A stretch of DNA of 19,556 bases, taken from an uncultured Porphyromonadaceae bacterium. Its GTDB lineage: Bacteria; Bacteroidota; Bacteroidia; Bacteroidales; Barnesiellaceae_A. Both the position numbers and the translations under genes were made by a program. The stretch covers positions 1-19,556 of the forward strand of contig UQMR01000041.1 of the NCBI GenBank assembly GCA_900542255.1. Direction: 5' to 3'. The notes below the pieces were generated by a model. The model had not been told where the DNA came from, did not search any database, and worked only from the letters and a program-made list of their open reading frames with translations. This document shows positions 1 to 15,999 of the stretch, one piece after another (the stretch's first letter is position 1; the number at the start of each line of letters is the position of its first letter).

Positions 1-1389
1 TACAAAAAAGCCTTGGAATGCTATTTGGCAGGAGAATATGTGTACAAACTGGGTGGAATGTATGAACGAGGCGAAGGCACCACACCCGATATGGAAAAAG
101 CATTTTATTATTATAAGCAGGCAAATGACAATTATAACATAGGGCGAATGTATGAGCAGGGCCTTGGCACGAAGAAGAATTTGCATAAAGCGTTTGAATG
201 TTATCACAAAATTGTTGATAGAGAGATTTATGAGCATGATTCAGAGGAAGAGAAAAACAAAATTCTGTCTGCTCGCAGTTCATTCCGTCGCTTAAAAAAG
301 ATATTGTTCGAGCAAAAGGATGAGATATGGATGACGGTTGCTGTAAGGGAACCGCAATCTGTCTGCGGTTTCTCGTTCACCAGTTATGGCGATTGCCAAT
401 TTACGATAGATTGGGGTGACGGACAAGTGGAAGAGATAAACAATGAGAAAGGAGAAGAAATTCATGCAGAACATACGTATGCGAGGGAAGGAGAATGGAG
501 CATCTGTTTGAGAAGTGATGAGACACATACTATCACTTCTTTCCATTACACTTGCGAGACATGTACCCTGAAAGTACTAAATGTAACGCTATGTCCGATA
601 CTTATCGACTTGTACTGTGTCAATCAAGGATTGAAATGTTTGAATGTTTCCAAAAATCCAAGACTGGGACGCCTGGTTTGCCGCGGCAACAAGTTGAAGA
701 AATTGAATATCCGGAGAAATAATCGCCTTACCCAACTTGACTGTTCTGACAACCCGGAGCTTTATCACGTAGATTGGAATCCACAATACTCAGCATTGAC
801 CAAGGTTTGCATGAAGAATATCATAAACTTTGACCAACTGGGCTTTCTCGACTATTTGCTGAAACGGAACAAAGGACAAAAATGCGAACCCATCGCGGAA
901 GCCTCGTTTGATCCTGTATTCTTGCCACTCTCTTATTATATGCGCTGCTTGAATTGGAGTGACGTGAAAGCAAAGATAAAAGAAGGTGGCTATCCAATAT
1001 GGAAAGAACATCCATGGAAAAAGTATAAATCCGCATTCGATGATATGAGTTCACGAGAAGATTTCCACTACACAGGCATTGACCGTATTGTTTGCGAAGG
1101 CGGTTATACCTATTATTGGCTTTATAGCTCCCGTGAAAAAAAGTACGTCCACCAAGATCTTGAAGATGTTGTTATGAATCTTATGCCTTGGAGTGAAACG
1201 CTTGATATGCCTGTGGAGATAAGAGAAAAGGAAGGATGGATGATGTTCCCACAAGTGACTTGGGCAGATGTGTTTTGTCCCTGTTTCATTGAGATGACTT
1301 GTTCGCACTGGAAAGAAACGGAAGAAATTATTCAATGGGAGCGTGATTATTGGGAGCGACATCGCCAAAGACAGGAGAAATACGAATGA
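1..1389 (+). CDS. Sel1-repeat / PKD-like / leucine-rich-repeat protein, 5' end missing
   Basis: The reading frame is open from base 1, so the true start lies left of the window and 462 codons are visible. Numbered from base 1, residues about 1-70 form two Sel1-type repeats, with GGMYERGEGT and GRMYEQGLGT as the A-loop motifs. Residues about 112-185 resemble a PKD/BspA-like beta-sandwich, with DWGDG at 137-141 and HTY at 158-160. Residues about 197-256 hold degenerate leucine-rich repeats of the L.CLNVSKN / L.KLNIRRN / L.QLDCSDN type. The last 200 residues are rich in Trp and Tyr and match nothing I recognise. Sel1 and leucine-rich repeats are protein-binding scaffolds, so a binding role is likely but the partner is unknown. 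The stop overlaps the next gene's start (ATGA), implying translational coupling. The base composition is AT-rich like the rest of the left block. Confidence 0.85.
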   Translation, partial: YKKALECYLAGEYVYKLGGMYERGEGTTPDMEKAFYYYKQANDNYNIGRMYEQGLGTKKNLHKAFECYHKIVDREIYEHDSEEEKNKILSARSSFRRLKKILFEQKDEIWMTVAVREPQSVCGFSFTSYGDCQFTIDWGDGQVEEINNEKGEEIHAEHTYAREGEWSICLRSDETHTITSFHYTCETCTLKVLNVTLCPILIDLYCVNQGLKCLNVSKNPRLGRLVCRGNKLKKLNIRRNNRLTQLDCSDNPELYHVDWNPQYSALTKVCMKNIINFDQLGFLDYLLKRNKGQKCEPIAEASFDPVFLPLSYYMRCLNWSDVKAKIKEGGYPIWKEHPWKKYKSAFDDMSSREDFHYTGIDRIVCEGGYTYYWLYSSREKKYVHQDLEDVVMNLMPWSETLDMPVEIREKEGWMMFPQVTWADVFCPCFIEMTCSHWKETEEIIQWERDYWERHRQRQEKYE

Positions 1390-1985
1390 GACTGGATTAT
1401 AAAGGAAAACGTTTGTTTGCATTTTCGGACACGCACGGTATGCACAGAGAATTAAGCATCCCCAAAGGCACAGATATTCTGATTTGTGCCGGGGATATCG
1501 TATCAGATTTTCAAGAAAACGAGTTGAGTGATTTCTTTGACTGGTTCTCTTCCTGTCCAGCACAGCTCCGATTATTTGTGCCGGGCAACCATGAAATCAT
1601 TTTCGACCTTTATCCGGAAGAAGCTCATCGGTTGATACCTGCAAATGTGACTTTACTTGAAGATTGCGGTATAAAGTATGACGGAATCACTTTCTACGCT
1701 ATTTCCAGCAGGATGATTCAGCAAATGCAGTGGTTAGGAGGGGAATGTGGATTACCATATCAAACGGATTTCTTGATTACCCACATTCCCCTGAAAGGCA
1801 TATTGGATGAAGGTACGGGTAGCGAAGTGTTACAACGAACTATTTTGGAACGTCAACCGAAACATCATCTTTTCGGCCACGTACATTCTAAAGGAGGACT
1901 ATGCGAAGAAAAGTGGAGTACAAAGTTTGACAATGTCTCCACCTTTCAGGCACTTTGCAAAACAGATGGTCAATTCGAGTTATAG
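1386..1985 (+). CDS. calcineurin-like metallophosphoesterase
   Basis: A 199-residue protein with all the signature blocks of the calcineurin-like (two-metal) phosphoesterase fold: D15-T-H17, G36-D37, G67-N-H-E70, T132-H133 and G164-H165-V-H167. It should hydrolyse phosphate mono- or diesters in the cytoplasm with two bound divalent metals; no signal peptide is seen. The substrate cannot be told from sequence; small proteins of this family include nucleotide and cyclic-nucleotide phosphodiesterases. I chose the ATG at 1386 over the TTG at 1350 because it overlaps the previous stop as ATGA and has AGGAG eight bases upstream (1373-1377), a rare clear Shine-Dalgarno for this group. It is therefore probably coupled to the Sel1/LRR gene. 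The 3' end overlaps the convergent gene by 16 bases. Confidence 0.88.
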   Translation: MRLDYKGKRLFAFSDTHGMHRELSIPKGTDILICAGDIVSDFQENELSDFFDWFSSCPAQLRLFVPGNHEIIFDLYPEEAHRLIPANVTLLEDCGIKYDGITFYAISSRMIQQMQWLGGECGLPYQTDFLITHIPLKGILDEGTGSEVLQRTILERQPKHHLFGHVHSKGGLCEEKWSTKFDNVSTFQALCKTDGQFEL

Positions 1986-2761
1986 CGTTTTCCGTTTTGG
2001 TCTATGATGTGCTGGCATACCAGATGGGCTTCCACCCAAAAATCATTTAACCGCAATAAGTCCGGAATGGAGTAAGGCTTGTGCGTGCAAATGTCATGTA
2101 CGGCATGACACACGACAACATGCTCCAATTCCGGACGGCGTAAATGCCCTTCCGCCCATGTCACGCCATCATCCCATACATCCACACAATGCAACTGTTC
2201 ATCTGTCATATCGGAAGTGTGTTGGGGCAAATAGCAGATTGAGCATTCTTCTATTTCAGGTATTCCCCCACAGAAATCCTCATTTAGCAAGGAAATCAAT
2301 TCTATCATATAAGCAAAGTCAGAACCATAATAGCTGTCTTCCGGCAATTCCAATATAGACTCCAGTCCACAGAACATATACCTTAGTGTACCACGGATGA
2401 CATAATCGTCATCAAAAGCTTCATCTTTTGGGCTATCAATCAATGTACGATAGAGATTTGCCATGCGATGGTACATTTTCTTGGTCAAGTTATTCAGCAA
2501 TTCGTTTACCGCCTCAAAACGTTTGATTTCTTGCGAAGTGGCTTGGAACATCCGGTTGAGAATCAAGCTCCGTGTACTTACTAAATCTTCTATCTTTTCT
2601 ATCTGTACTGCACTGATATACCTCAAATCAAGGCTTCCCTTTTCCTGTTCGCCCATGAGCTTTTTGATTTCCGCTTCCACTTCCAACAGCAAAGCCCGTT
2701 TCTTGTCCACATTATTTTCTTGATAGATGTAATCCGCCAAATCTTCTGCATATAAATCCAT
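1970..2761 (-). CDS. unknown protein, helical N-terminus and Cys/His-rich C-terminus
   Basis: I do not recognise this 263-residue protein. Its first half is charged and helical, with heptad-like stretches around residues 15-40 and 50-100. The second half carries scattered Cys and His, including CSIC, CHAVHDICTH and CQH, which might bind a metal, although no standard zinc motif fits. The C-terminal block reading LLRLNDFWVEAHLVCQHIID looks conserved in style. The frame is also open back to an ATG at 2842. I prefer the ATG at 2761 because a -7-like TATTTTTG (2796-2789 on the minus strand) would start the transcript near 2782, downstream of 2842. The gene diverges from the duplicated-domain operon across a 163-base shared region, and its 3' end overlaps the phosphoesterase gene. 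Confidence 0.72.
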   Translation of the reverse strand: MDLYAEDLADYIYQENNVDKKRALLLEVEAEIKKLMGEQEKGSLDLRYISAVQIEKIEDLVSTRSLILNRMFQATSQEIKRFEAVNELLNNLTKKMYHRMANLYRTLIDSPKDEAFDDDYVIRGTLRYMFCGLESILELPEDSYYGSDFAYMIELISLLNEDFCGGIPEIEECSICYLPQHTSDMTDEQLHCVDVWDDGVTWAEGHLRRPELEHVVVCHAVHDICTHKPYSIPDLLRLNDFWVEAHLVCQHIIDQNGKRYNSN

Positions 2762-2788
2762 AATCGTCTTATTTATTGAATGATGTGA

Positions 2789-2796
2789 CAAAAATA
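2789..2796 (-). promoter_or_regulatory. possible -7 element for the minus-strand unknown gene
   Basis: CAAAAATA on the plus strand reads TATTTTTG on the minus strand, an exact match to the Bacteroidetes -7 form TAnnTTTG. The nearest TTTG upstream (2814-2811) leaves a spacer of only 14 bases instead of about 19-21, so the -33 half is weak. It would give a 5' leader of about 20 bases to the ATG at 2761. Confidence 0.45.
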
Positions 2797-2859
2797 AGTT
2801 CACCTTATGCCAAATGGAAGCACAGGGCTGCTTATTTCTCATAATAACAAAATCTTTTT

Positions 2860-2891
2860 AGCATATGCTTTAATATGGCATAACTTTATGC
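2860..2891. promoter_or_regulatory. candidate operator: palindrome plus inverted repeat over the promoter
   Basis: AGCATATGCT at 2860-2869 is a perfect 10-base palindrome touching the -33 box. GCATAA-ct-TTATGC at 2878-2891 is a perfect inverted repeat (6+2+6) filling the spacer up to the -7 box. Both use GCATA/TATGC half-sites, and another TTATGC lies at 2805-2810 toward the divergent gene. The WYL regulator encoded in this operon is the obvious candidate ligand (inference). Confidence 0.55.
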
Positions 2892-2899
2892 GATATTTG
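2869..2899 (+). promoter_or_regulatory. putative promoter of the duplicated-domain/WYL operon
   Basis: TTTA at 2869-2872 and GATATTTG at 2892-2899 are separated by 19 bases, the usual Bacteroidetes -33/-7 spacing, each with one mismatch to TTTG and TAnnTTTG. Transcription would begin near 2906, about 19 bases before the ATG at 2925. The elements are interleaved with inverted repeats, as expected for a repressed promoter. Confidence 0.5.
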
Positions 2900-2926
2900 C
2901 ATTATCAAGTTAAAACTTTGCATTAT
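2896..2926 (+). repeat. 10-base direct repeat TTTGCATTAT, 21-base period
   Basis: TTTGCATTAT occurs at 2896-2905 and again at 2917-2926, running into the start codon at 2925. The 21-base offset is two helical turns, so both copies face the same side of the DNA. They overlap the -7 box and the likely transcription start, which suggests a second protein-binding element. Confidence 0.6.
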
Positions 2927-3788
2927 GGAACAAATGACATTCAAATCTTTGCTCGCTCGGTTCAGTTTTGATGACATCTTACCTGAATTTAAAGCCTTAT
3001 ATCAAAAGCTAAGGTCTGATTTGTTTGAACAGACAGACTGGGATATTTATCGAGACTTATATCAAGACTTACGAACACGTAAAGAAAAAGAAGGTAAATC
3101 AAAGTATGCCATTCAAATAAATGAACGCTGGGGTGAATCACAAATTGCAGGTTCAAACTGTTGCTTGTTTTATGAAGATGGAAATGATTACGACTATCGG
3201 GGAATAGGTAGCTATCCTTATCTGTCAGAGATCTTAGGCTTGGAAATCATTATCAATGGCAATGTCGCGCTTTCATTAGAAGAATTGACCGCAGGCTTGC
3301 TTTGGGAGATTACATATGACAAGCGTAATGGATTAACGGATGTTGATCTGGAACATCTGACTTTTAAGTATTTGCTTACACGTTTCAGTTTTGATGACAT
3401 CTTAAGCGATTTCAAGACCTTGTATCAAAGGAATGCACCAAAATCATTTCTGAAAGCGAATTGGGAAGCTTATCGAAAAGTTTATCTATTCCTTCAGCAA
3501 CTTAAACTTTCAGAATCAAAGTATTGCATTTATCTGGCATCCCGTTGGGAAGGATGTTCGCCTTTGATTGACATGAATTGTTCCATCTACGATAAAAATG
3601 GAGATGAGATTTGTCAGCCCATGGCAACATATCCCATATGGTCGGAAATATTGAACATGAGGATTATCATTGAATATGATATGATAATCAGACCACAAGA
3701 ACTGACTGCCGGATTGCTTTGGGAAATCACTTATTATGGAGAAACAGACAAAATGATTCAAGAACATCTTGAAAAAATGTTTAAATAG
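2925..3788 (+). CDS. two-copy unknown-domain protein (possibly DUF6557-like)
   Basis: This 287-residue protein is an internal tandem duplication. Residues about 4-140 and 145-280 share the order FK.LL.RFSFDDIL..FK.LYQ, a variable centre, a YP..SEIL motif, and ELTAGLLWEITY. The DNA still shows the event: TTCAGTTTTGATGACATCTT is identical at 2961-2980 and 3384-3403, a 423-base (141-codon) period, so the duplication is fairly recent. There is no signal peptide or membrane segment; it should be a soluble cytoplasmic protein. From memory the layout resembles the Bacteroides DUF6557 family (unknown function), which I cannot confirm. It is the first gene of a plus-strand run with a third copy of the domain and a WYL regulator immediately downstream. 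Confidence 0.8.
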   Translation: MEQMTFKSLLARFSFDDILPEFKALYQKLRSDLFEQTDWDIYRDLYQDLRTRKEKEGKSKYAIQINERWGESQIAGSNCCLFYEDGNDYDYRGIGSYPYLSEILGLEIIINGNVALSLEELTAGLLWEITYDKRNGLTDVDLEHLTFKYLLTRFSFDDILSDFKTLYQRNAPKSFLKANWEAYRKVYLFLQQLKLSESKYCIYLASRWEGCSPLIDMNCSIYDKNGDEICQPMATYPIWSEILNMRIIIEYDMIIRPQELTAGLLWEITYYGETDKMIQEHLEKMFK

Positions 3789-3810
3789 CAGATTTATAAT
3801 CAATAATAAA

Positions 3811-4236
3811 ATGGAATGTGTTACAGTTAAAATGCTAACAACGGAATTGGGCTTTGAGCATATGCTGCCTGTACTTGGCGCATTACATAACCGATTCGAG
3901 GCTCAACCGTTTCGAGATTGTGATGTGGAAAAATATCGGAAGTTATACATGGCACTTCAAGAACAGGAAGCTATCGACTCTGGATTTTCCATTTATGTGA
4001 CTACAAATTTGTCCGATTACCCGCCATTCAAGATATTGAGTTTGGTGGATATGCACTTTGCTATATACGACAAGAAAGAAGATAGCTTTCATGGCTCAAT
4101 AACAGACTATCCGTCATTATCAGAACTTTTAGGGATGGAAATCATACAGGGAGGCGAATATGTATCCACTCTTGAAGAACTGCAAGCAAACCTGTTTTGG
4201 GAACTTGCTGTCGTTCGCAAAACAAAAAACGCATAG
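3811..4236 (+). CDS. single-copy protein of the same unknown domain
   Basis: A 141-residue protein that aligns along its whole length with each half of the preceding protein: V.VKML....GFEHMLPVL.ALH at the start, AIYDKKED in the middle, YPSLSELLGMEI and then EELQANLFWEL at the end. It is clearly more diverged than the two halves are from one another, so it separated earlier. I chose the ATG at 3811 because the homology begins there; an upstream ATG at 3769 would overlap the previous gene. The gap to the previous stop is 22 bases and to the WYL gene only 5, so all three are probably co-transcribed. Function is unknown; no catalytic motif is visible. Confidence 0.8.
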   Translation: MECVTVKMLTTELGFEHMLPVLGALHNRFEAQPFRDCDVEKYRKLYMALQEQEAIDSGFSIYVTTNLSDYPPFKILSLVDMHFAIYDKKEDSFHGSITDYPSLSELLGMEIIQGGEYVSTLEELQANLFWELAVVRKTKNA

Positions 4237-4241
4237 ATATT

Positions 4242-5147
4242 ATGACAAAAGATTTATTTGACAAATACATTTGGTTAGTAGACACTATCTACAGAGCCGG
4301 AAAAATCACGTTTGAGGAAATCAACGAGCGTTGGCTTCGTTCACGATTGAGTGAAGGGGAAGATATTCCATTAAGAACCTTTCATAACTGGCGCATTGCC
4401 ATCGAACAAGTCTTTGATATAAATATCAATTGTAACCGGAAAGGTGGCTATTACTACTATATCGAAAATGCAGATGATATGCAAAAAGGAGGTATCCGTA
4501 ATTGGTTGCTCAATACGTTTGCAGTTAATAATCTGATAAACGAAAGCCATCATTTGAAACGGAGAATCCTATTTGAAGAAATTCCTTCCGGCAGAAAATA
4601 CCTCACGCCTGTCATTGAAGCCATGCGTGACGGATTAGAATTGGAGCTATATTATCAAAGTTATTGGTACGAAGAACCAAGTACCTATACGTTACAACCT
4701 TATTGCATCAAAGTGTTTAAGCAGAGATGGTATGTCATCGGTTTCTGCAAAGAGCGGAATAATATCCGCACCTTTTCTTTGGATAGAATACAACAACTGA
4801 CCACCTTGGACACGAAGTTTATTTATCCAAAAGATTTTGATCCAGAAGCCTACTTTGCAGACTATTTCGGTATTATGATTGAAAACAAGAAATTGGAAAC
4901 CATTCGGATTAAAGTCTATGGAATGCATGTACAATATATCCGTGCTTTGCCTTTGCACCATTCCCAATGCGAAATTGAGACAACAGAAGATTATTCCATC
5001 TTTGAGTACCGTATGAAACCGACCTTAGACTTCCGGCAGGAATTACTTTCAAGAGGGGCAGTTGTAGAGGTGCTTGCTCCTTTAACTTTTCGGGAAGAAA
5101 TTATTCAATCGGTGAATAAAATGAGTTCTTTATACAATAAACAGTGA
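4242..5147 (+). CDS. WYL-domain transcriptional regulator
   Basis: A 301-residue protein with the standard three-part layout of WYL regulators. Residues about 1-75 form a winged helix-turn-helix; residues about 120-190 form the WYL domain, with QRWYVIGFCKE at 161-171 followed by RTFSLDRI at 176-183; residues about 218-297 form the C-terminal WCX-type extension. WYL domains bind small ligands such as nucleotides or nucleic-acid ends and often control phage-defence or DNA-damage genes. The ATG at 4242 lies 5 bases after the previous stop; a longer frame from 4197 would overlap that gene and has no homology support. It is the most likely regulator of its own operon through the palindromes at 2860-2891 (inference). 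Confidence 0.88.
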   Translation: MTKDLFDKYIWLVDTIYRAGKITFEEINERWLRSRLSEGEDIPLRTFHNWRIAIEQVFDININCNRKGGYYYYIENADDMQKGGIRNWLLNTFAVNNLINESHHLKRRILFEEIPSGRKYLTPVIEAMRDGLELELYYQSYWYEEPSTYTLQPYCIKVFKQRWYVIGFCKERNNIRTFSLDRIQQLTTLDTKFIYPKDFDPEAYFADYFGIMIENKKLETIRIKVYGMHVQYIRALPLHHSQCEIETTEDYSIFEYRMKPTLDFRQELLSRGAVVEVLAPLTFREEIIQSVNKMSSLYNKQ

Positions 5148-5159
5148 TCTTACATACAA

Positions 5160-5753
5160 ATGAAAAAGAAATATACTGATGCTCAATCCTATTTTCAAGA
5201 TTGGGCACAAGCCAAAAAGAAAGAAGTGCAGAATATGGAAGAATCCATGAGGGAAAATCCGTTATATCAGAAAGAGGTGAATCCTATCGAAGATAATGAA
5301 ACTTGGTCAGAACGATTCCATTTCATACTTCGCAAGGGACTCTCCGAAAAAGAATGGAAAGCGTATCAACAGAGTATAAGACAAGACCGCTTACGGATAT
5401 GGGCAATGTTTATAAATGAGAATCCAGACTACGATTATCATTATTTCTTGAATCTGTTGAAATTCAAATTGGAATGGATGATTTTCTATTGGGAGAACTT
5501 TGGACATTTAGCTCGTGCGGAGCAAGATATCAGTCGAATGCGGATTGCTACAAGGCTTTTGGATATTATCATGGACGAAAATTCTGATGCTCCAATCCCT
5601 TATGTGAATATGAAAAACAAACATCGCTTCCGTGTATATCAGAAATCGCAGGATATGTATGAAATTGATAGTGAATATGAAGTTCGTTTTTGCAAAGCAT
5701 ATTGTTTGTTCTTTAGGTTTTTAGAATATCATCTGTTAGGATGGTGGGATTAA
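5160..5753 (+). CDS. unknown Trp/Tyr-rich protein, last gene of the WYL operon
   Basis: I do not recognise this 197-residue protein by name. It is strongly charged at the N-terminus (residues 1-45, Lys/Glu-rich, helical) and aromatic thereafter, with no signal peptide or clear membrane segment. It ends in FRFLEYHLLGWWD; a C-terminal ...F..L...WWD block is a pattern I associate with small proteins of Bacteroides phages and mobile elements, which fits its place at the end of the accessory block. The start is 12 bases after the WYL stop, so it probably belongs to the same transcript. It is followed by the candidate attachment region and tRNA-Leu. Confidence 0.72.
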   Translation: MKKKYTDAQSYFQDWAQAKKKEVQNMEESMRENPLYQKEVNPIEDNETWSERFHFILRKGLSEKEWKAYQQSIRQDRLRIWAMFINENPDYDYHYFLNLLKFKLEWMIFYWENFGHLARAEQDISRMRIATRLLDIIMDENSDAPIPYVNMKNKHRFRVYQKSQDMYEIDSEYEVRFCKAYCLFFRFLEYHLLGWWD

Positions 5754-5819
5754 ATTGTTGCTTGGTCCTTTTTTACTTACGTTTAATAGCATTTAGGAAG
5801 AGAAAAATTAAGTATGGCC

Positions 5820-5840
5820 GGGAACAAAACGGGAACAATA
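5820..5840. repeat. GGGAACA direct repeats, possible integrase arm sites
   Basis: GGGAACAAAA (5820-5829) and GGGAACAATA (5831-5840) are direct repeats offset by 11 bases, about one helical turn, within 60 bases of the 3' end of tRNA-Leu. Short repeats like this beside a tRNA are typical arm-type binding sites of tyrosine integrases. No integrase gene is present in the window, so the assignment is inferred. Confidence 0.45.
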
Positions 5841-5844: not shown

Positions 5845-5891
5845 CAAAATAAAATCGGCTAAGCATTGATATTCAACTACTTAGCCGATTT
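5845..5891 (-). terminator. terminator downstream of tRNA-Leu
   Basis: AAATCGGCTAAG and CTTAGCCGATTT (plus-strand 5852-5863 and 5880-5891) form a perfect 12-base stem with a 16-base loop. On the minus strand the hairpin starts 6 bases after the tRNA 3' end and runs into TTTTATTTT, a good intrinsic terminator. If the left block is an inserted element, this terminator would belong to the element's end. Confidence 0.75.
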
Positions 5892-5896
5892 GCTCG

Positions 5897-5980
5897 TACC
5901 CAGAGCCGGGATCGAACCGGCATGGAAGTGAATCCACTGGTGTTTGAGACCAGCGCGTCTACCAATTCCGCCATCTGGGC
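5897..5980 (-). tRNA. tRNA-Leu (anticodon CAA)
   Basis: The minus strand folds as an 84-nt class II tRNA. The acceptor arms GCCCAGA and TCTGGGT pair with a G-U at position 1-72. The D stem is GCG/CGC; the anticodon stem CTGGT/ACCAG carries the loop CTCAAAC, giving anticodon CAA, which reads UUG as Leu. The long variable arm has a TGGA/TCCA stem, and the T arm is GCCGG-TTCGATC-CCGGC. The discriminator is A, as in leucine tRNAs. CCA is not encoded. It marks the boundary between the AT-rich accessory block and the housekeeping DNA. Confidence 0.96.
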
Positions 5981-5990
5981 TTAGCGGGGG

Positions 5991-6022
5991 CAAAGATAGT
6001 GCTTCGCGCTGACATGTGCAAA
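5991..6022 (-). promoter_or_regulatory. consensus promoter of tRNA-Leu
   Basis: On the minus strand TTTG (6022-6019) and TATCTTTG (5998-5991) are separated by 20 bases, an exact match to the Bacteroidetes sigma-ABfr promoter. Transcription would begin about 5 bases before the tRNA 5' end at 5980. Confidence 0.85.
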
Positions 6023-6262
6023 TTTTGAGGTGTTTTTTTGTCGAGGATTTCTTTTTGTCTGCTGTATAGGCCTCGCAGGCTTCTCTATGAGGTTCTTTTT
6101 CAGCCGTGTTGCGGCCCGGATGGGGCCGGCGGATGGAATGTGATATTAATATAATTTGTTATAACTTGGGTAAAGAAAGTAAGCGGAAATGATGACTCTT
6201 TCGGGATTTTATTGTAAATTAGCCCTCTCAATAAGAGTCGGATTATAAAAGAAAATTCTGTC

Positions 6263-7339
6263 ATGGAAAACCGGTATTGTGTTATAATGAGCGGCGGTAT
6301 AGGCCGCAGGTTTTGGCCATTCAGTCGCACTTCGTGTCCGAAGCAATTTCTCGATTTTTTTGGCAGCGGACGTACGCTGTTACAGATGACTTACGACCGT
6401 TTATCCCGTATCATACCCACAGACCATATTTTTATCGTTACCAATGAGGCGTATGCCGCGCTCACGCATGAACAGTTGCCCGAGGTGGCCGAGGAGCGGA
6501 TTCTGTTGGAGTCGCATCGTCGCAATACGGCGCCTTGCATCGCATGGGCTACGTATCATATAAAGGCTATCGACCCCGATGCGGTCGTCCTGGTAGCGCC
6601 GTCAGACCATCTTATATTGCGCGAGGATGAGTTCCGCCGTTGTATCGACGAAGGTTTTGAGTTTGTGGCGCGTCACGATAAGTTGCTTACGCTGGGTATT
6701 ACGCCCAACCGCCCCGAGACGGGGTATGGCTACATACAGGTGGGCGAGCCTTACGAGAAGGAGATATGCTCGGTAAAGACGTTCGTAGAGAAGCCCAATT
6801 ACGAGATGGCCTGTGTGCTCTTGGAGAGCGGCGAGTTCTATTGGAACTCGGGTATGTTCCTGTGGAGTGTGAGCAGCATTACGCGGGCTTTGGAGCGTTA
6901 TCTGCCCAATGTGTCGTCGCTCTTCGAGCAGATAAGCGACCGCATGTGTACGCCCGACGAGAAGGCTGCGGTAGATGAGGCATATAACCTCTGTCCTGTT
7001 ATCTCGATAGACTTCGGCGTGATGGAGAAGGCCGATAACGTGTGCGTGATGTGTGCCGACTTCGGGTGGAGCGACATAGGCACATGGGGCGGCCTGTATG
7101 ATGTATCGCCCAAGAATGCCGAGGGCAATGTGACGCAGAACTGCAAGACGCTGATGTATGACAGCCGCAACAACCTTGTTGCCGTCAAGGGCGACAGGCT
7201 GGTGGTGATAGACGGGTTGAGCGACTTCCTGGTGGCCGAGGCCGATGATGTGTTGCTGATTTGTCCCAAGGATAACGAGCAGCGCATTCGTCAGTTTGTC
7301 ACCGATGCCCGCGTGAAGTTCGACGACAAGTATATATAA
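6263..7339 (+). CDS. manC: mannose-1-phosphate guanylyltransferase
   Basis: The enzyme makes GDP-mannose from mannose-1-phosphate and GTP in the cytoplasm, feeding GDP-fucose and mannose-containing glycans. The 358-residue length fits the single-domain form without the isomerase half seen in some proteobacterial fusions. The nucleotidyltransferase signature GGIGRRFWPFSR is at 11-22 and PKQF at 25-28; then come APSDH, TGYGYIQVG, FVEKP, YWNSGMFLW, SIDFGVMEK and GWSDIGTW, all in family order. It is a stand-alone gene: the tRNA lies upstream on the other strand and a strong hairpin follows it at 7365-7398. I see no convincing promoter in the 282 bases upstream. The base composition is visibly more GC-rich than left of the tRNA. 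Confidence 0.93.
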   Translation: MENRYCVIMSGGIGRRFWPFSRTSCPKQFLDFFGSGRTLLQMTYDRLSRIIPTDHIFIVTNEAYAALTHEQLPEVAEERILLESHRRNTAPCIAWATYHIKAIDPDAVVLVAPSDHLILREDEFRRCIDEGFEFVARHDKLLTLGITPNRPETGYGYIQVGEPYEKEICSVKTFVEKPNYEMACVLLESGEFYWNSGMFLWSVSSITRALERYLPNVSSLFEQISDRMCTPDEKAAVDEAYNLCPVISIDFGVMEKADNVCVMCADFGWSDIGTWGGLYDVSPKNAEGNVTQNCKTLMYDSRNNLVAVKGDRLVVIDGLSDFLVAEADDVLLICPKDNEQRIRQFVTDARVKFDDKYI

Positions 7340-7364
7340 CAGCTGAATATGCCTATGAAATATA

Positions 7365-7404
7365 AGGGGCTGTGGCATCTTTATGAGCCACAGCCCCTGT
7401 TTTA
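7365..7404. terminator. bidirectional terminator between manC and the nucleoside kinase
   Basis: AGGGGCTGTGGC (7365-7376) and GCCACAGCCCCT (7387-7398) form a perfect 12-base stem with a 10-base loop, followed by GTTTTA on the plus strand and an AT-rich run on the minus strand. It lies between two convergent stop codons (7339 and 7423), so it can serve both genes. Confidence 0.85.
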
Positions 7405-7422
7405 TGATTCGGATTGATGCTG

Positions 7423-9096
7423 TCAGTATCTGAAACTGCTGCCGCCGAGGAACTCGCGTAACAGGGATGTGGGCGGTATTTCGTTCTCGGGCAGAGGCAG
7501 GAAGTAGTGCAGGAAGCTGAGCAGGCGGGCTGCCTCGGCATACTCGGGACAGTTGCGTGGTACGACCCGCAGGATGGGGGTGGCGTAGTTGCGGATAACC
7601 GAGAGCTCGAATATCAGCGACGAGTTGAACATGGCGTCGGCATTCTCTTGGTAGGGGAATATCCAGCGGTCTTCGCCTTTGCGTACGCTTTTCCAACGGG
7701 CGATGGTGTCTTTGGCCGAGCATCCGCGGCTTTGTGCATCGCGTACGATGCGGCGCAGCAGACGGTTGTCGGTGGTGGGCACCCAGCTGTGGTCGTCGAT
7801 AGAGAGGGAGGTGAGTGCCGAGACGTAGATGCGGAACTTCTGATGCTCCGGTATGTGCGGTGTCAGGTCGGGGTTAAGGCCGTGTATCCCCTCCATGATG
7901 AGTACCGTGTTGGGCGTAAGCTGCATGGTGCGCCCGGTCTCGATGCGTGTGCCGCTCTTGAAGTCGTAGGTAGGCAGGGCCACCCGTTCGCCGGCAAGGA
8001 GGCGGTTCAGGTCGGAGTTGAAGCGTTCGAGGTCGAGAGCATAGAGCGACTCATAGTCGTAGTCGCCGTTTTCGTCGCGCGGGGTATCCTTGCGGTTGAC
8101 GAAATAGTCGTCGAGCGATATGGCGGCCGGGGTGATGAGGCTCGTCATGAGCTGGATGGAGAGCCGCTTGGAGAAGGTCGTTTTGCCCGATGAGGAGGGT
8201 CCCGATATGAGTACGATGCGGGCGCCGCCGTTTCTGAAACGTGTGGCAATCTCTTCGGCAATCTGGGCAATCTTCTTTTCGTGTAGCGCCTCGGCGACCT
8301 GTATGAGCTCGGTGGCACGGTTCTCCTCGATGGCACGGTTGAGTTTTCCCACACCGTCGAGTCCGACAATATGGTTGAAGGCGATATATTCGCCAAAGGC
8401 ACGCAGCATCTTTTGTTGGTTGATAACCGATGCCGGGCGTGACGGGGCGGTGGTATCGGGGGGTAAGAGCAGCATGCCGTCGCTGTACGGTACCAAGTCG
8501 AATACCGACAGATAGCCGGTAGAGGGTACCAGCCAGCTGTAATATATGTCGGCAAGGCCGTCCAGCAGGTAGTAGTTGGTGTAAAGGTCGCCTATCGATT
8601 CGAGCAACGCCACTTTTTCAAGCATATTCTGTTTGCGGAATATCTCTATCACCTCCTCGGTGTGCGCAAGTTTGTGCTCAAAAGGTATATCCTCGGCGAC
8701 AATCTCTTGCATGCGATGTTTTATCGCCTTGATGTTCTCTTCCGTCAGCGGGGCATCTCCGTTTTTCAGTACACAGTAGTTGCCATGCGAGATGGAGTGC
8801 TCTATGCGAAGGCGGCTGCCGGGGTGTAGCTCGGTGATGGCCTTATACAGGACGAAACAGAGCGACCGCACGTAGGCGCGCATGCCCGAAGGGTCGGTAA
8901 TGTCGACAAATTCTACATCGCAAGGGTTGTAGACGCGATAGTCGAGGCTTTCCGATTTGTGATTTACACGGGCTGTTACAGCCGGATATGCCGAGGGAAT
9001 ATCGAGGCGCTTGTATATGTCGAGAAGTCTCTCTCCGCCCTCAGCCTCTATTTGCGAAGCGGTATTGGTGCAATAAATGTGAAATTTGTGTTCCAT
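7423..9096 (-). CDS. uridine kinase-like nucleoside kinase with ThrRS-like N-terminus
   Basis: A 557-residue two-part protein. The first 200 or so residues resemble the TGS and second additional domain of threonyl-tRNA synthetase, including HSISHGNYCVL. The remainder is a P-loop phosphotransferase of the uridine kinase/phosphoribulokinase family, with Walker A GPSSSGKT at 299-306 and SLDDYFVNR shortly after, which supplies the catalytic Asp. This architecture is common in Bacteroidetes and Firmicutes, usually annotated only as nucleoside kinase; the true substrate and the role of the N-terminal part are not settled. It is probably cytoplasmic. The gene stands alone, converging on manC, with 268 bases to the sirtuin gene upstream. 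Confidence 0.88.
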   Translation of the reverse strand: MEHKFHIYCTNTASQIEAEGGERLLDIYKRLDIPSAYPAVTARVNHKSESLDYRVYNPCDVEFVDITDPSGMRAYVRSLCFVLYKAITELHPGSRLRIEHSISHGNYCVLKNGDAPLTEENIKAIKHRMQEIVAEDIPFEHKLAHTEEVIEIFRKQNMLEKVALLESIGDLYTNYYLLDGLADIYYSWLVPSTGYLSVFDLVPYSDGMLLLPPDTTAPSRPASVINQQKMLRAFGEYIAFNHIVGLDGVGKLNRAIEENRATELIQVAEALHEKKIAQIAEEIATRFRNGGARIVLISGPSSSGKTTFSKRLSIQLMTSLITPAAISLDDYFVNRKDTPRDENGDYDYESLYALDLERFNSDLNRLLAGERVALPTYDFKSGTRIETGRTMQLTPNTVLIMEGIHGLNPDLTPHIPEHQKFRIYVSALTSLSIDDHSWVPTTDNRLLRRIVRDAQSRGCSAKDTIARWKSVRKGEDRWIFPYQENADAMFNSSLIFELSVIRNYATPILRVVPRNCPEYAEAARLLSFLHYFLPLPENEIPPTSLLREFLGGSSFRY

Positions 9097-9227
9097 GCCA
9101 GAAAAATTGAATCTAAATACAAAAGAGAAGCGTGAGCTTGCTTATAACTTGTTAGTGCCAATGTAGGAATAAAAAACGAGATATATGGTAGTATTACGTA
9201 TTTTAACCTATATCGGAGTTCTCGCGG

Positions 9228-9255
9228 TGAGACAACGGGCGGCGGCTCTGTCTCA
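9228..9255. repeat. short inverted repeat in the kinase-sirtuin gap
   Basis: TGAGACA (9228-9234) and TGTCTCA (9249-9255) are a perfect 7-base inverted repeat with a GC-rich 14-base loop. It lies downstream of the sirtuin gene on the minus strand but has no T-run, so it may be a weak terminator, a binding site, or nothing. The rest of 9097-9364 shows no gene. Confidence 0.3.
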
Positions 9256-9364
9256 GAAACATTGCATCCATGAGGATAAGCTCTGGCGCCGGTTGACAGT
9301 TCTCCTTTTGGTGCCCTGCCGGGTGGGTAAGGCTGTTGCTGTATGATGCTTCCGCCCCGTATCC

Positions 9365-10072
9365 TTATTTAGGCGGTTGTTGTGAGGTGAGAATCTGTGT
9401 CAACTCGGCAACCCCTTCCGACGCTCCTTTGCGTATGAAATGGATGGCCATATTCTGGGGTGCATTTACCGGCTTGGGGTCGATAAGGTAGATAGGTACG
9501 CCGTGTTTTACGTATTGTAGCAGTCCGGCGGCCGGATATACGTTGAGCGAGGTGCCTATTACTACGAAGATGTCGGCCGATTCGGTAATCTCTATGGCCG
9601 GTCCTATCATGGGAACGGCCTCGCCAAACCATACGATGTGCGGCCGCAGCGGGTCGCCATATTTGTCCCGGTCGTCCATGCTTATCTCGCAATGCTCGGG
9701 CGAGAGTTCATAGATATGCTTGTCGTTATATACCGAGCGTACTTTCATCAGCTCGCCGTGCAGGTGCAATACCGAGGTGCTGCCGGCGCGCTCATGCAGG
9801 TTGTCGACGTTTTGCGTGATAATATGCACGTCGAACTCTTTTTCGAGGGCGGCCAGCTGGGTGTGTCCGGCGTTGGGCTGAGCCTTTATCAGCTCTTTGC
9901 GGCGCGTGTTATAGAAGTTCTGTACCAGCTCGGGGTTGCGCATCCACCCTTCGATAGATGCTACATCTTCTACCCGATAACGCTCCCATAAACCTCCGCT
10001 GTCGCGGAAGGTTGAGATTCCGCTTTCGGCACTCATGCCGGCTCCGGTGAGTACAACTAAGTTCTTTTTCAT
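9365..10072 (-). CDS. NAD-dependent protein deacylase, sirtuin class III, no zinc cysteines
   Basis: A 235-residue Sir2-family enzyme that removes acyl groups from lysine using NAD. The NAD-binding block GAGMSAESGISTFR is at 10-23, TQNVDNLHERAG at 86-97, and the catalytic His is H105 in LHGEL. Y54 and R57 in FYNTR match the Tyr and Arg that give E. coli CobB and human SIRT5 their desuccinylase/demalonylase activity. The segment between H105 and WFGE, where sirtuins normally have two CxxC pairs for zinc, contains a single Cys and no pair, so the structural zinc is apparently lost. It is monocistronic as far as can be seen. No clear promoter is found in the 250-base gap it shares with the divergent FKBP operon. 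Confidence 0.93.
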   Translation of the reverse strand: MKKNLVVLTGAGMSAESGISTFRDSGGLWERYRVEDVASIEGWMRNPELVQNFYNTRRKELIKAQPNAGHTQLAALEKEFDVHIITQNVDNLHERAGSTSVLHLHGELMKVRSVYNDKHIYELSPEHCEISMDDRDKYGDPLRPHIVWFGEAVPMIGPAIEITESADIFVVIGTSLNVYPAAGLLQYVKHGVPIYLIDPKPVNAPQNMAIHFIRKGASEGVAELTQILTSQQPPK

Positions 10073-10275
10073 AGTCGGTCGTTATATCGTTTGTTACTCT
10101 GTCAGTCGGTGCCTCTTGTAAAAGGAGGCCTGCCCCGCCGGCTTGATGCGACTTGCAGGCGGCAAGCCGGTCGTGATGGTATAAATATCGGTAAAATAAT
10201 TGTTTGTAAGTACCGCAACGCTCGAAATTATGTTATTTTTAACTTCTGTGGCAAGATATTATAGTCGAAAGGCTC

Positions 10276-10283
10276 TATCTTTG
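10276..10283 (+). promoter_or_regulatory. -7 element of the FKBP operon promoter
   Basis: TATCTTTG exactly matches TAnnTTTG and would start transcription near 10290, leaving a leader of about 34 bases to the ATG at 10324. No good TTTG lies 19-21 bases upstream. Confidence 0.65.
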
Positions 10284-10323
10284 CAGCCGTATGAAATAAT
10301 TATGAACATAAACCGCAAAAAAC

Positions 10324-10914
10324 ATGGATAAGTTAAGTTATGCCTTGGGTATGAACGTAGGTTACAGTTACCTTGCCTCGGGCATTAGCAACCTGCAAGT
10401 AGATGATTTCGCACAAGGTGTAAAAGCCGTTATGGAGCAAGCCGAGCCGGCACTCAGCATCGATGAAGCGAAAACGATAATCAACGATTTTTTCATGCAG
10501 TTGCAGGAGCAGATAAACAAAGCCGCCGGCGAAACGCTGAAAAAAGGCGAGGAATTTCTTGCCGAAAACGCCAAGCGTCCCGGTATAGTGACTTTGCCCA
10601 GCGGCTTGCAGTATGAAATATTGTCGGCTGGTACCGGCCGCAAGCCGTCGGCTACCGACCGTGTACAATGCCATTATCATGGGACATTGATAGATGGTAC
10701 GGTTTTTGACAGTTCGGTACAGAGAGGTGAGCCTGCCGTATTTGGAGTCAATCAAGTGATTCCCGGATGGGTAGAGGCGTTGCAACTGATGCCCGAGGGG
10801 TCGCGTTGGAAACTTTATATACCTTCTAAATTGGCTTATGGCGAGCATCAGGCCGGGTCGATACCCCCCAACTCGGCATTGGTTTTTGAAGTAGAACTTA
10901 TCAAAGTAATATAA
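10324..10914 (+). CDS. FKBP-type peptidyl-prolyl isomerase, cytosolic
   Basis: A 196-residue protein with an FkpA-type N-terminal dimerisation region (residues about 1-85; MDKLSYALGMNVG start) and a C-terminal FKBP domain from about 108 to 195. Family motifs include CHYHGTLIDGTVFDSS, VIPGWVEALQLMPEG, and KLAYGE followed by IPPNSALVFEVEL. FKBPs speed cis-trans isomerisation of proline bonds and act as folding helpers. There is no signal peptide, so this copy should be cytosolic, unlike its lipoprotein neighbour starting 7 bases downstream. The two are certainly paralogues and very probably co-transcribed from the promoter at 10276. Confidence 0.92.
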   Translation: MDKLSYALGMNVGYSYLASGISNLQVDDFAQGVKAVMEQAEPALSIDEAKTIINDFFMQLQEQINKAAGETLKKGEEFLAENAKRPGIVTLPSGLQYEILSAGTGRKPSATDRVQCHYHGTLIDGTVFDSSVQRGEPAVFGVNQVIPGWVEALQLMPEGSRWKLYIPSKLAYGEHQAGSIPPNSALVFEVELIKVI

Positions 10915-10921
10915 TACGAAT

Positions 10922-11794
10922 ATGAAAAAAATTTTAGTTTATTCCCTTTGTACGGCCGCAGCGTTGGCTGTGACCTCTTGTGGCAATAAAGCCGCCACTT
11001 CTATAACAGACCAGAACGACAGTATCAGCTATGCCTTTGGTGTGATGAACGGGTCGGGTATGGCCGAGGCCAAATCTACGGGTATGTATCCCGAGCTTAA
11101 TGATTTGGATGTAGACCTCTATATGAAAGGTCTCAAAGAGTCTATCAATAGCAGCAAGGAGCAAAATTCCTACTATATGGGTATGGCACAGGGCGCACAA
11201 CTCCGGCAATTCTTTGAGCGCATGAGCAATGACCTCGGTGTAGAGTTTGATGCAGATATATTCATGGCAGCCTTTGAGAAATCTGTCAAGGGCGACTCCG
11301 CTTTGTTTATAGCTCCGGGTGTGGCTCGCGGCGTATACACCTCGATGTTGCAACAAGCACAAGAGAGAAAAGAACAGGCCGAGCTTGACTCTATCGCTGC
11401 TACGCCCGAGGCAAAAGCCAACCTCGAGGCCGGTATGGCTTTCCTCGCAGCCAAGGAGAAAGAAGAGGGCGTGAAGAAAACCGAGTCGGGCTTGCTCTAT
11501 AAGGTCATAAAAGAGGGCCGTGGAGAGAAAATCAAAGCCAACGAGCGCGTAGAACTCTCGTATGTAGGTAAATTGATCAATGACACTATTTTCGACCAGA
11601 ATCCCAAGACTCGCTTTATGCCCAGCCAAGGTATTGCCGGATGGAAAGAGGGTCTGCAACTGATGTCGCCCGGAGCAAAATACGAATTCTATATCCCCGC
11701 AGAGTTGGCCTATGGAGTACGTGGCGCAGGTGACAGAGTTCCTTCAAATTCTACGTTGATATTTGAAGTGGAAGTCTTCAATCGTGTGAAATAA
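10922..11794 (+). CDS. FKBP-type peptidyl-prolyl isomerase, lipoprotein
   Basis: A 290-residue paralogue of the upstream gene. The N-terminus is a lipoprotein signal peptide with the lipobox VTSC and the acylated Cys at position 20, so it is exported and membrane-anchored, probably in the periplasm or outer membrane. Residues about 25-190 are the FkpA-like helical dimerisation domain, containing SISYAFGVMNG. Residues about 198-288 form the FKBP domain, with YVGKLINDTIFD, GIAGWKEGLQLMSPG, and ELAYGV followed by VPSNSTLIFEVEV. The role is likely folding of exported or outer-membrane proteins. The gene ends with a strong terminator at 11827. Confidence 0.93.
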   Translation: MKKILVYSLCTAAALAVTSCGNKAATSITDQNDSISYAFGVMNGSGMAEAKSTGMYPELNDLDVDLYMKGLKESINSSKEQNSYYMGMAQGAQLRQFFERMSNDLGVEFDADIFMAAFEKSVKGDSALFIAPGVARGVYTSMLQQAQERKEQAELDSIAATPEAKANLEAGMAFLAAKEKEEGVKKTESGLLYKVIKEGRGEKIKANERVELSYVGKLINDTIFDQNPKTRFMPSQGIAGWKEGLQLMSPGAKYEFYIPAELAYGVRGAGDRVPSNSTLIFEVEVFNRVK

Positions 11795-11826
11795 TAAAAA
11801 CAACCTATATAATAAATTATATTTTT

Positions 11827-11859
11827 CGGCAGAGGGGTAATTTTCTCTGCCGTTTTTTT
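11827..11859 (+). terminator. terminator of the FKBP operon
   Basis: CGGCAGAG (11827-11834) pairs with CTCTGCCG (11845-11852) around a 10-base loop and is followed at once by seven T residues, a textbook intrinsic terminator. Confidence 0.92.
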
Positions 11860-11914
11860 ATGTTATAAAAGCACAAAACATTGTTCTTTTTTCTTTTTTT
11901 TCTAATATACTTAT

Positions 11915-11922
11915 TATTTTTG
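11915..11922 (+). promoter_or_regulatory. -7 element upstream of the Lrp/AsnC gene
   Basis: TATTTTTG matches TAnnTTTG exactly. It lies in a very AT-rich stretch and would give a leader of about 58 bases to the ATG at 11988. The -33 half is not clear because the upstream sequence is almost all T. Confidence 0.5.
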
Positions 11923-11987
11923 TAATATAATTGCCAAAACCGACCTATTCGGTTACACTTGTGTAAAAAAATAAATTTTTTTGAGGT

Positions 11988-12470
11988 ATGGATAAGATAG
12001 ATGACTTAGATCGTAAGATTTTGGAGATTATCATGAATAACGCACGTATCCCATCGAAAGACGTTGCCGTCGTATGTGGTGTGTCGCGGGCTGCTGTACA
12101 TCAAAGAATACAGCGAATGATAGAGCTGAACATCATTACGGGTTCGGGCTATCATGTAGATCCCAAAGTGCTGGGTTATAATGTATGTGCTTATGTAGGA
12201 GTGAAACTTGAACGTGCTTCCTTGTATCGAAACGTATTGTCGGAGCTGGAAAATGTCAAAGAGATTATCGAAAGCCATTTTACGACCGGTCCGTATACCA
12301 TGTTGTGCAAGATGGTTGCCCGTGACAACGAGCATTTGATGAATCTGTTGAACAGGCGTATACAGGTAATTCCCGGAGTAATGTCGACAGAAACACTTAT
12401 CTCTTTGGAAGAGAGTCTAAACCGTGAAATTCCTGTCACATACAAAGGAGACGGGCGTTATAAATTCTGA
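11988..12470 (+). CDS. Lrp/AsnC-family transcriptional regulator
   Basis: A 160-residue protein of the usual Lrp/AsnC size. Residues about 1-60 form the N-terminal helix-turn-helix: LDRKILEIIMNNARIPSKDVA, then VSRAAVHQRIQRM as the recognition helix. Residues about 75-150 form the RAM ligand-binding and oligomerisation domain. Members sense amino acids or related small molecules and act as multimers on DNA. Target genes cannot be deduced: it stands alone, with a terminator before it (11827-11859) and a bidirectional one after it (12642-12680). The C-terminal tail after about residue 145 is slightly longer than in typical Lrp. Confidence 0.92.
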   Translation: MDKIDDLDRKILEIIMNNARIPSKDVAVVCGVSRAAVHQRIQRMIELNIITGSGYHVDPKVLGYNVCAYVGVKLERASLYRNVLSELENVKEIIESHFTTGPYTMLCKMVARDNEHLMNLLNRRIQVIPGVMSTETLISLEESLNREIPVTYKGDGRYKF

Positions 12471-12641
12471 GGGCGGCCGTCCTTTTTCGTAGGAAAAAGT
12501 CCCGATAGTATAGTTTTGGTGAGATAGAGCAATTTATAGCAACTTGTAACGTTACTTTTTCAGAATGTGAGTATCTGGTTTTTGTGCAATTCTCTGTATC
12601 TTCATTCTGAGTATATTATCATATTTTCTTACACACATTAT

Positions 12642-12680
12642 ACGGGGCTGTGATGCAATGAATGCCAATCACAGCCCCGT
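12642..12680. terminator. bidirectional terminator between the Lrp gene and ispG
   Basis: ACGGGGCTGTGAT (12642-12654) and ATCACAGCCCCGT (12668-12680) form a perfect 13-base stem with a 13-base loop, followed by TGTTTG on the plus strand. It sits between two convergent stop codons. The GGGGCTGTG core is the same as in the terminator at 7365-7398. Confidence 0.8.
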
Positions 12681-12720
12681 TGTTTGCAATCGTGTGTAAA
12701 AAAGTGCCGGCCGAGCGCCG

Positions 12721-14526: not shown

Positions 14527-14612
14527 GAGGATGCGTGTTTAGGGCTCGGGCTGAGAGGTCGTCCCGGGCGGTTAGCGGATGTGCCTGATGGGCTTATACG
14601 GGCAACCGCTTA

Positions 14613-15119
14613 TCAGTTGGTTTTGTAGTCGTAGTGGATGTCGGCCAGCTCTTTGTTGGCTTTCACGATTTTATCGGCGAGGTGTATCTTGTAGTTTTGT
14701 ACCCGTTGGGCGATACGGGTATCGCCCAATGCCAATATTTGGGTGGCAAGAATAGCCGCATTGAGAGATGCATTGATACCCACCGTGGCAACCGGTATGC
14801 CCGGAGGCATTTGTACGATGGCATACAGGGCATCGATACCATCGAGGCTCGATTTGATGGGAACGCCTATGACCGGGAGTGTAGTCATAGAAGCTATTAC
14901 ACCCGGCAGGTGAGCTGCCATTCCGGCGGCGGCAATGATGACCTTGATGCCGCGTTGCTCGGCATTCTTGGCAAACTCCTCGACCTCGGCCGGAGTGCGA
15001 TGTGCCGACAAGGCGTTCATCTCAAACGGAATTTCAAAATCGTTGAGGAGCTGTGCAGCTTTCTCCATGATAGGGAGGTCTGAGGTGCTGCCCATGATGA
15101 TGCTTACGATTGGTTGCAT
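14613..15119 (-). CDS. purE: N5-carboxyaminoimidazole ribonucleotide mutase
   Basis: A 168-residue class I PurE, which converts N5-CAIR to CAIR in purine synthesis. Motifs: [12 protein letters not shown] at 7-18 for phosphate binding; SAHRTP with the catalytic His at 40; [15 protein letters not shown] for substrate binding; [16 protein letters not shown] near the C-terminus. The length and the SAHRTP block indicate the bacterial mutase rather than the class II carboxylase. The start lies 12 bases after the PAP2-like stop, so the two are co-transcribed, with ispG following after 86 bases. Confidence 0.96.
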
Positions 15120-15131
15120 GTGTATGAGAAA

Positions 15132-15764
15132 TCAGATAAGTGTAATAAGAAGGAATATATAACACGAGATACATATCCATATGAATCCGTTGGCAAAGCC
15201 GCTTATTACCTGCCCCAGCGTGTGACGTTTGAGCAGGATGCGCGAGGTGCCCAGGCATCCCGATGCCAATATGGTGCCTATTTGCAGGTAGAACATGTAA
15301 TCGGTATACATAATGTATTGCAGGTAGCTCATGATGAATACAAGACCCGTCATGCCGCCTATCGCCGTCATGTGGACGCTTATTTTCCACCATCTGTTTA
15401 TGATGAGGTCGCATATAAGGGCAACGATACCACCTACGACAAATCCGAACTGTATCCCTCTGAGCCCCGCCAGCCACAGGTACACGGCGCATGCTACGTA
15501 GCAAACCAAGAAAATGATGTAGGGCAGCGTGCGCTCCTCGCGGTTAACCAATCCCACGCTCGTAATGAGTTTCATCTTGTAGAGCATCAGTACGCCTATG
15601 CAGGGGAATAGGATGGTGAATAGCGCAACGAGCAGCGTGTAGGTGAGGATGTATTGGTCGCCCAAAAGGCTCATGTAAGAGAAAAAGAGCGAAATGAATA
15701 TTCCTGCTGTCGGAATAATAAGCGGATGGAATATCGTAGAACAGATACGCGCAAAAATCTTCAT
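15132..15764 (-). CDS. PAP2-like integral membrane protein
   Basis: A 210-residue hydrophobic protein with about six membrane segments. The arrangement NREERTLP at the first cytoplasmic loop, HMTAIGG before the next helix, and SRILLKRHTLGQVISG near the C-terminus resembles motifs of the PAP2 phosphatidate/undecaprenyl-diphosphate phosphatase superfamily. The match is loose: the usual PSGH is SVHMT here, and the last motif lacks the Asp three residues after His. Activity is therefore uncertain. A role in recycling lipid carrier phosphates would fit co-transcription with ispG, which supplies isoprenoids (inference). I chose the ATG at 15764; the frame is open to 15797, but the extra 11 residues look like leader sequence. 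Confidence 0.78.
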   Translation of the reverse strand: MKIFARICSTIFHPLIIPTAGIFISLFFSYMSLLGDQYILTYTLLVALFTILFPCIGVLMLYKMKLITSVGLVNREERTLPYIIFLVCYVACAVYLWLAGLRGIQFGFVVGGIVALICDLIINRWWKISVHMTAIGGMTGLVFIMSYLQYIMYTDYMFYLQIGTILASGCLGTSRILLKRHTLGQVISGFANGFIWICISCYIFLLITLI

Positions 15765-15850
15765 GATACAGTGGTATTTTGGTATGTCTTTTAGCACGAG
15801 GTGTGTTTTTTATGGTGAAAAATTTCGGACACCCGGTAAAAGTTGCTGTG

Positions 15851-15858
15851 CAAAAATA
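15851..15858 (-). promoter_or_regulatory. -7 element for the PAP2-purE-ispG operon
   Basis: CAAAAATA on the plus strand reads TATTTTTG on the minus strand, matching TAnnTTTG, about 87 bases before the ATG at 15764. No clear -33 TTTG is present at the usual distance. Confidence 0.5.
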
Positions 15859-15962: not shown

Positions 15963-15999
15963 AATGAGTTTTATGGTAGTGATAGAGGGTAACCGCCGG

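Follow-up and report, generated by a model that had tools for sequence, protein, structure and literature searches.

A DUF6557 gene cassette with a WYL-type regulator at what looks like the tRNA-Leu(CAA) end of a mobile island

The DNA considered here is a stretch of 19,556 bases (the whole of it referred to as the window) from contig UQMR01000041.1 of an uncultured Porphyromonadaceae bacterium (assembly GCA_900542255.1). It carries four genes, here called A, B, C, and D, that are all encoded on the + strand and are separated by only 22, 5, and 12 bases, exactly as given in an earlier reading made from the letters alone (the sequence-only reading). That reading recognized two-plus-one copies of one domain, a WYL regulator, and a protein ending in WWD, all in AT-rich DNA next to a tRNA gene with adjoining repeats, and each of these elements was recovered in our analysis (Table 1). 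The GC content of the six 500-base bins covering positions 2501 to 5500 is 36 to 38%, compared with 41 to 43% in the five preceding bins; from 6001 on, 20 of 28 bins lie at 45 to 61%, the lowest bin being at 37%. No description of an operon of this composition was found in literature searches, in agreement with its designation as undescribed.

Table 1. Features of the cassette and of the adjoining island end
Feature	Position	Strand	Description
Sel1-repeat gene, 3' part	13..1389	+	Pfam Sel1, E value 1e-14; first cassette gene in the window, truncated at its edge
Calcineurin-like metallophosphoesterase gene	1386..1985	+	MPPED2-like; PF00149, E value 1e-8
X290	1970..2842	-	Divergent 290-residue gene; conserved start probably near 2761
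Near-palindrome AATATGGCATAA-CT-TTATGCGATATT	2872..2897		Between X290 and A; candidate operator
Gene A	2925..3788	+	Tandem pair of DUF6557 domains, spanning about residues 1-142 and 143-287
Gene B	3811..4236	+	Third, divergent DUF6557-like domain; 141 residues
Gene C	4242..5147	+	WYL + WCX regulator
Gene D	5160..5753	+	197 residues, predicted all-helical; phrog_8579-like C-terminal part
Tandem 11-base repeat CGGGAACAA(A/T)A	5819..5840		Units 5819-5829 and 5830-5840; island end
Hairpin	5852..5891		12-base arms; between the repeat and tRNA-Leu
tRNA-Leu (caa)	5896..5980	-	Putative insertion target; chromosome continues rightwards

Related cassettes were found at loci labeled L002 (a Paraprevotella metagenome-assembled genome [MAG]), L003 (Bacteroides caecigallinarum), L004 (a Butyricimonas MAG), and L006 (a Phocaeicola MAG). 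In the first three, C is 96 to 99% and D 87 to 91% identical to the window copies and the order is unchanged. The copy in L006 is decayed: C is 92% identical, and D is absent. Ratios of nonsynonymous to synonymous substitution rates (dN/dS) of 0.02 to 0.32 point to purifying selection on the five genes compared (the phosphoesterase gene, X290, A, C, and D). The conserved order and identity across loci, together with purifying selection, indicate that the cassette exceeds chance. The same loci indicate that the real unit is larger than the four genes to which it had originally been limited and that it comprises the Sel1 gene, the metallophosphoesterase gene, and the divergent X290, followed by A, B where present, C, and D. 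The full order of Sel1 gene, phosphoesterase gene, X290, A, C, and D is kept in L002 and L004, where the cassette is preceded by a UDG-like gene whose UDG match, at 16.5 bits versus a Pfam cut-off of 24.3 bits, is subthreshold. L003 has the cassette without the phosphoesterase, of which 18 residues are still recognizable. The Sel1 gene is 94% identical to that of L003 and 74% identical to that of L002, its relatives being 622 to 762 residues long. The phosphoesterase matches MPPED2 (E value, 1e-11) and the PADLOC candidate model PDC-S10 (E value, 4e-46; model positions 11 to 203 of 223). X290, which matched no Pfam family, is 86 to 91% identical in L002, L003, and L004 and 39% identical in L046/L047. 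A scan of the seven cassette proteins that was confined to the PADLOC profiles named only WYL-type models and PDC-S10, leaving A, B, and D unmatched.

The repeated domain could be named as DUF6557 by its Pfam profile. Fold searches, which the sequence-only reading had proposed for each protein, named no function for A or D. Gene A contains two PF20194/DUF6557 stretches (E value, 3e-15; 57.5 bits versus a Pfam cut-off of 27.8) and is thus a member of this family. Gene B gave no match in the Pfam profile search and did not reach the PF20194 cut-off; the count of two plus one domain copies nevertheless holds because B is 32% identical to A over 138 residues (E values from a small local database, 2e-18 to 3e-18). 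The 15 relatives of B came from the lgn and ena sources only, L002, L003, and L004 have no B between A and C, and in L002 and L003 A has one domain only. The model of the second A domain (window 3351 to 3785) has a mean predicted local distance difference test score (pLDDT) of 84.6. In a viral structure library, its sole match at an E value of ≤0.001 was an uncharacterized protein of the giant virus Edafosvirus, A0A3G4ZVI3 (E value, 6.6e-4; template modeling score, 0.56). PF20194 is rare, being present in 15 of 393 genomes of the order, and no mention of DUF6557 was found in a full-text literature search. A metallophosphoesterase fused to a C-terminal DUF6557 domain is encoded in L049 (3570 to 4607), P0082, and P0085. 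We also observed in L005 a DUF6557 gene (4249 to 5008), 60 to 65% like A, that adjoins a tRNA-Met gene; the stretch examined there holds no WYL gene or D, and a NikA-like gene lies about 3 kb from the DUF6557 gene.

The identification of C as a WYL regulator was borne out by Pfam matches to WYL (E value, 4.8e-19) and WCX (E value, 1.4e-8), and the relatives of C in the PDB are PafBC and WYL regulators (best E value, 1.3e-8). Its N terminus gave no helix-turn-helix profile match, and residues 1 to 100 appear winged-helix-like by eye only. With a dN/dS of 0.02 to 0.04, C is under the strongest purifying selection among the genes compared. The 163 bases between the divergent genes X290 and A contain a near-palindrome in which 11 of 12 arm positions pair, a score equaled by 10 of 1,000 dinucleotide shuffles; the corresponding site of L002, L003, and L004 has 9 to 10 of 12 arm positions paired. 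Gene D matches phrog_8579 (E value, 7e-9), and its model is all-helical with a pLDDT of 82.3. It ends in LLGWWD, an ending shared by 13 of the 15 relatives aligned from 77 found in the database, so that the WWD end noted initially recurs among them. Relatives of D occur in 9 of 399 genomes of the family when weak matches are counted.

A comparison of synonymous divergence (dS) among the window, L002, L003, and L004 sets the DUF6557 domain apart from the genes around it. Four of the six pairs gave dS values of 1.40, 1.85, 1.50, and 2.23 for this domain, versus 0.08 to 0.74 for the flanking genes of the same loci (X290, C, and D, and the phosphoesterase gene without L003). The remaining two pairs have ordinary values (window-L004, 0.28; L002-L003, 0.39). 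For L003 and L004, for instance, dS is 0.08 for X290, 0.33 for C, and 0.16 for D, versus 2.23 for the DUF6557 domain. Comparison of C with L006, a more distant locus, gave dS values of 1.33 to 1.82. Because dS is high in four of six pairs and low in the flanks, there are two allele classes at the DUF6557 gene with the flanks mixed, which indicates that the DUF6557 slot is swapped between islands. We liken this to effector displacement, which is described as typical for conflict systems in PMC7159879.

An island position had been proposed for the operon, and the sister locus L095 agrees with it: L095 is collinear with the window only from 5892 rightwards, on the tRNA side, with about 87% identity over 5892 to 9212, and its left flank holds, by eye, kdp-like potassium transport genes. 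The 15 PF20194-positive genomes do not include that of L095 (G027), and the tRNA site there is without the island. The cassette of L006 also adjoins a tRNA-Leu(caa) gene, the tandem 11-base repeat recurs, with GGGAACAAAACGGGAAC, at the same island end in L004 and L006, and the hairpin is common to the window and L006; by eye, the sister genome carries a different hairpin. On the L003 contig, genes for a relaxase, NikA/MobC, and a tyrosine integrase lie within about 9 kb of the cassette copy, and Toprim primase and DUF5906 genes are present as well. From these data, the four genes look like the conserved terminal part of a mobile island that was inserted at tRNA-Leu(CAA), an insertion inferred from one boundary. 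To the right of the tRNA gene, positions 6263 to 19198 have the appearance of ordinary chromosome, with genes that by eye are mannose-1-phosphate guanylyltransferase-like, SIR2-like, FKBP-type, ispG-like, purE-like, and rpoN-like.

The expectation that the domain lies repeatedly beside WYL genes was confirmed for the close relatives of A but not for the broad family. A WYL gene lies within 10 kb at 11 of 17 contigs with a close DUF6557 match (25 matches merged by hand), versus about 0.26 expected given the 29 WYL matches across 12 genomes (about 38 Mb in total). The associated binomial figure assumes independent places, whereas related islands are not independent. The 12 genomes were picked by A, DUF6557, or D matches and not by WYL, and all have close A matches. 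No WYL gene lies within 10 kb at six places (G005:C21, G001:C51, G002:C18, G003:C389, G519:C27, and G296:C17), of which G001:C51, G002:C18, G003:C389, and G519:C27 are on contigs that are short or that end nearby. The WYL gene comes immediately after the DUF6557 gene(s) in the window and in L002, L003, L004, and L006, five loci in all. Thirteen of the 15 PF20194 genomes, in which A matched weakly or not at all, were excluded from the distance count; 11 of these were read with long flanks (7 among the controls described below and 4 listed apart), and only 2 of the 11 loci had a WYL match (L038 at 27% and L047 at 49% identity). The WYL company is therefore far above chance by these counts but is specific to the close DUF6557 subfamily.

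The wider neighborhoods of the 17 close-DUF6557 loci, window included, were tabulated. They contain WYL genes in 11 loci, a figure that is too low because the L045 WYL gene (G296:C12:35736-35939) was missed in this table, genes for a long DUF6557 protein in 11, the phosphoesterase in 7, and a 296-residue protein in 7, followed by the Sel1 gene, DprA, and RtcB (6 each); DEDD exonuclease, D, X290, and UDG-like (5 each); tubulin-like (4); PLD (3); and RecA-like ATPase (2) genes. RtcB, PLD, tubulin-like, and long DUF6557 proteins each count themselves once because the queries were drawn from loci of the table, L079 to L082 are alike, and L001 and L051 possibly represent two contig fragments of a single element. 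The 14 control loci, which came from broad DUF6557 or D matches or from the sister genome and are not random, hold WYL in 2, D in 2, RtcB in 1, DEDD in 1, and long DUF6557 in 2. One of them, L063, was retrieved by its D match only; it contains relatives of WYL, RtcB, and DEDD as well as a DUF6557 gene of its own that scores just above the cut-off. Ten proteins of the wider set were compared with PADLOC: DprA matched ShosA (E value, 2e-54), PLD matched DrmC (1e-8), the DEDD exonuclease matched a CRISPR-associated DEDDh model (3e-28), the RecA-like ATPase matched mad8 (4e-7), WYL matched WYL, and RtcB matched only a doubtful methylase (2e-4). A Bacteroidales gene set around long DUF6557 proteins was seen to recur in L061 (5399 to 15416), L079, L080, L081, and L082, with RtcB, DprA-like, tubulin-like, RecA-like ATPase, PLD, DEDD exonuclease, WYL, and 296-residue proteins in varying parts. 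GmrSD_N genes are nearby in L001 and L063, and L045 has a bpMoxR gene. In L039 (8607 to 9741), HigB-like and HigA-like genes, named by eye, are followed by a DUF6557 gene in a possible three-part toxin-antitoxin arrangement.

We tentatively propose, with a probability of roughly 0.42, that the window carries a mobile, WYL-repressed nucleic acid stress or defense cassette of which DUF6557 is the exchangeable part. BrxR, a WYL protein, binds inverted repeats and represses a defense island (PMC9122601). By analogy, C would bind the near-palindrome and hold the divergent X290/A promoter shut, and its WYL pocket may recognize a nucleic acid or nucleotide that signals invasion or damage; once C is released, A, B, D, and the divergent X290 would be switched on. 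The DUF6557 proteins could serve as interchangeable subunits, either adaptors or inhibitors, that direct or hold back an effector activity, the best effector candidates being the metallophosphoesterase and the possibly UDG-like protein. The whole might be a modular response of Bacteroidales to nucleic acid that is foreign or damaged. WYL domains elsewhere are fused to 3'-5' exoRNases (PMC4012209). It is also conceivable, though doubtful, that the cassette represents one form of a modular, as yet undescribed immune system of Bacteroidales in which WYL sensing is combined with swapped DUF6557 subunits; other forms would use a DprA-like sensor, an RtcB RNA ligase, a tubulin-like GTPase, a RecA-like ATPase, a PLD nuclease, and a DEDD exonuclease, placing RNA breakage and religation within defense.

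Several observations weigh against the proposed reading. No nuclease or other effector was recognized in A, B, or D in profile searches, and there is no direct tie to phages because A was unmatched in phage and plasmid collections and in two viral contig scans. The near-palindrome is only moderately unusual, and in L006 another place scores best. The insertion is inferred from one side only because the other island end is outside the window. The broad DUF6557 family mostly occurs without WYL, two of the six dS comparisons are ordinary, and dN/dS shows purifying rather than diversifying selection. RtcB, DprA, PLD, and tubulin-like genes belong to the related loci, and none was seen in the window. 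Four of the ten wider-set proteins (tubulin-like, UDG-like, long DUF6557, and 296-residue) were unmatched in PADLOC, whose names are homology labels; ShosA would probably be matched by a housekeeping DprA as well.

Small tandem domains with a swapped slot would also fit an immunity or antitoxin cassette in which DUF6557 neutralizes toxins, whether of rivals or of toxin-antitoxin pairs, with the tandem copies and the swapping tracking toxin variants. In L039, the DUF6557 gene (9199 to 9741; PF20194 match) starts 3 bases after the HigA-like gene (8899 to 9195), and in L037, a DUF6557 gene lies among genes that by eye are MazF/RelE-like. However, none of the seven cassette proteins matched a toxin family, and immunity arrays are not usually accompanied by WYL, RtcB, DprA, and exonuclease genes. 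We consider this explanation unlikely. Less likely still is that the genes form a WYL-regulated accessory operon that times the excision or transfer of a mobilizable island, as the end-of-island position, the relaxase, primase, and integrase genes on the L003 cassette contig, and a distant D relative in L064 (E value, 5e-5) with relaxase- and replication-initiator-like genes by eye would suggest; four mobility queries from L003 found nothing in the WYL-DUF6557 loci L079 to L082, where integrases were not sought, and the partners there are nucleic acid enzymes. RtcB and RNase T-type exonuclease partners and a PafBC-like regulator are what would be expected of RNA or DNA repair genes that respond to the cell's own nucleic acid damage and were merely captured by an island. 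Against this housekeeping role, which seems improbable, stand the rarity of PF20194 in the order and of D in the family and the fact that the cassette is mobile and swapped. Taken together, the sequence-only interpretation, which had left defense, immunity to a rival's toxin, and element maintenance side by side, is partly supported.

The ties of DUF6557 to WYL, to the phosphoesterase fusion, and to the RtcB/DprA sets provide, to our knowledge, the first testable role for this family, and the swapped slot points to DUF6557 as the likeliest carrier of specificity. Should the wider set truly be an immune system, RNA ligation would be added to the defense repertoire of Bacteroidales.

With the WYL regulators of defense islands (BrxR and CapW) and of DNA damage (PafBC), C has in common the WYL domain with a C-terminal WCX and the island setting, but the genes beside it, encoding DUF6557, D, and X290, are unlike those in the settings of these regulators. 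An inverted repeat upstream of the operon is shared with the BrxR type (PMC9122601) and is represented here by the candidate palindrome. A stable core with a swapped slot is likewise a feature of the MoxR-vWA ternary systems (eLife 2020, PMC7159879). bpMoxR and weak vWA matches lie near a DUF6557 pair in L045; unlike in these systems, none of the seven cassette proteins matched a MoxR or vWA family. ShosTA/PsyrTA systems consist of a DprA-like antitoxin paired with a toxin. DprA-like genes occur in 6 of the 17 related loci, and the one scanned scores as ShosA/PsyrA; in contrast, no DprA was seen in the window, which contains the island only in part. Finally, A scores above the cut-off like other members of PF20194, and what distinguishes this locus within the family is the tandem duplication in A together with the divergent third copy, B.

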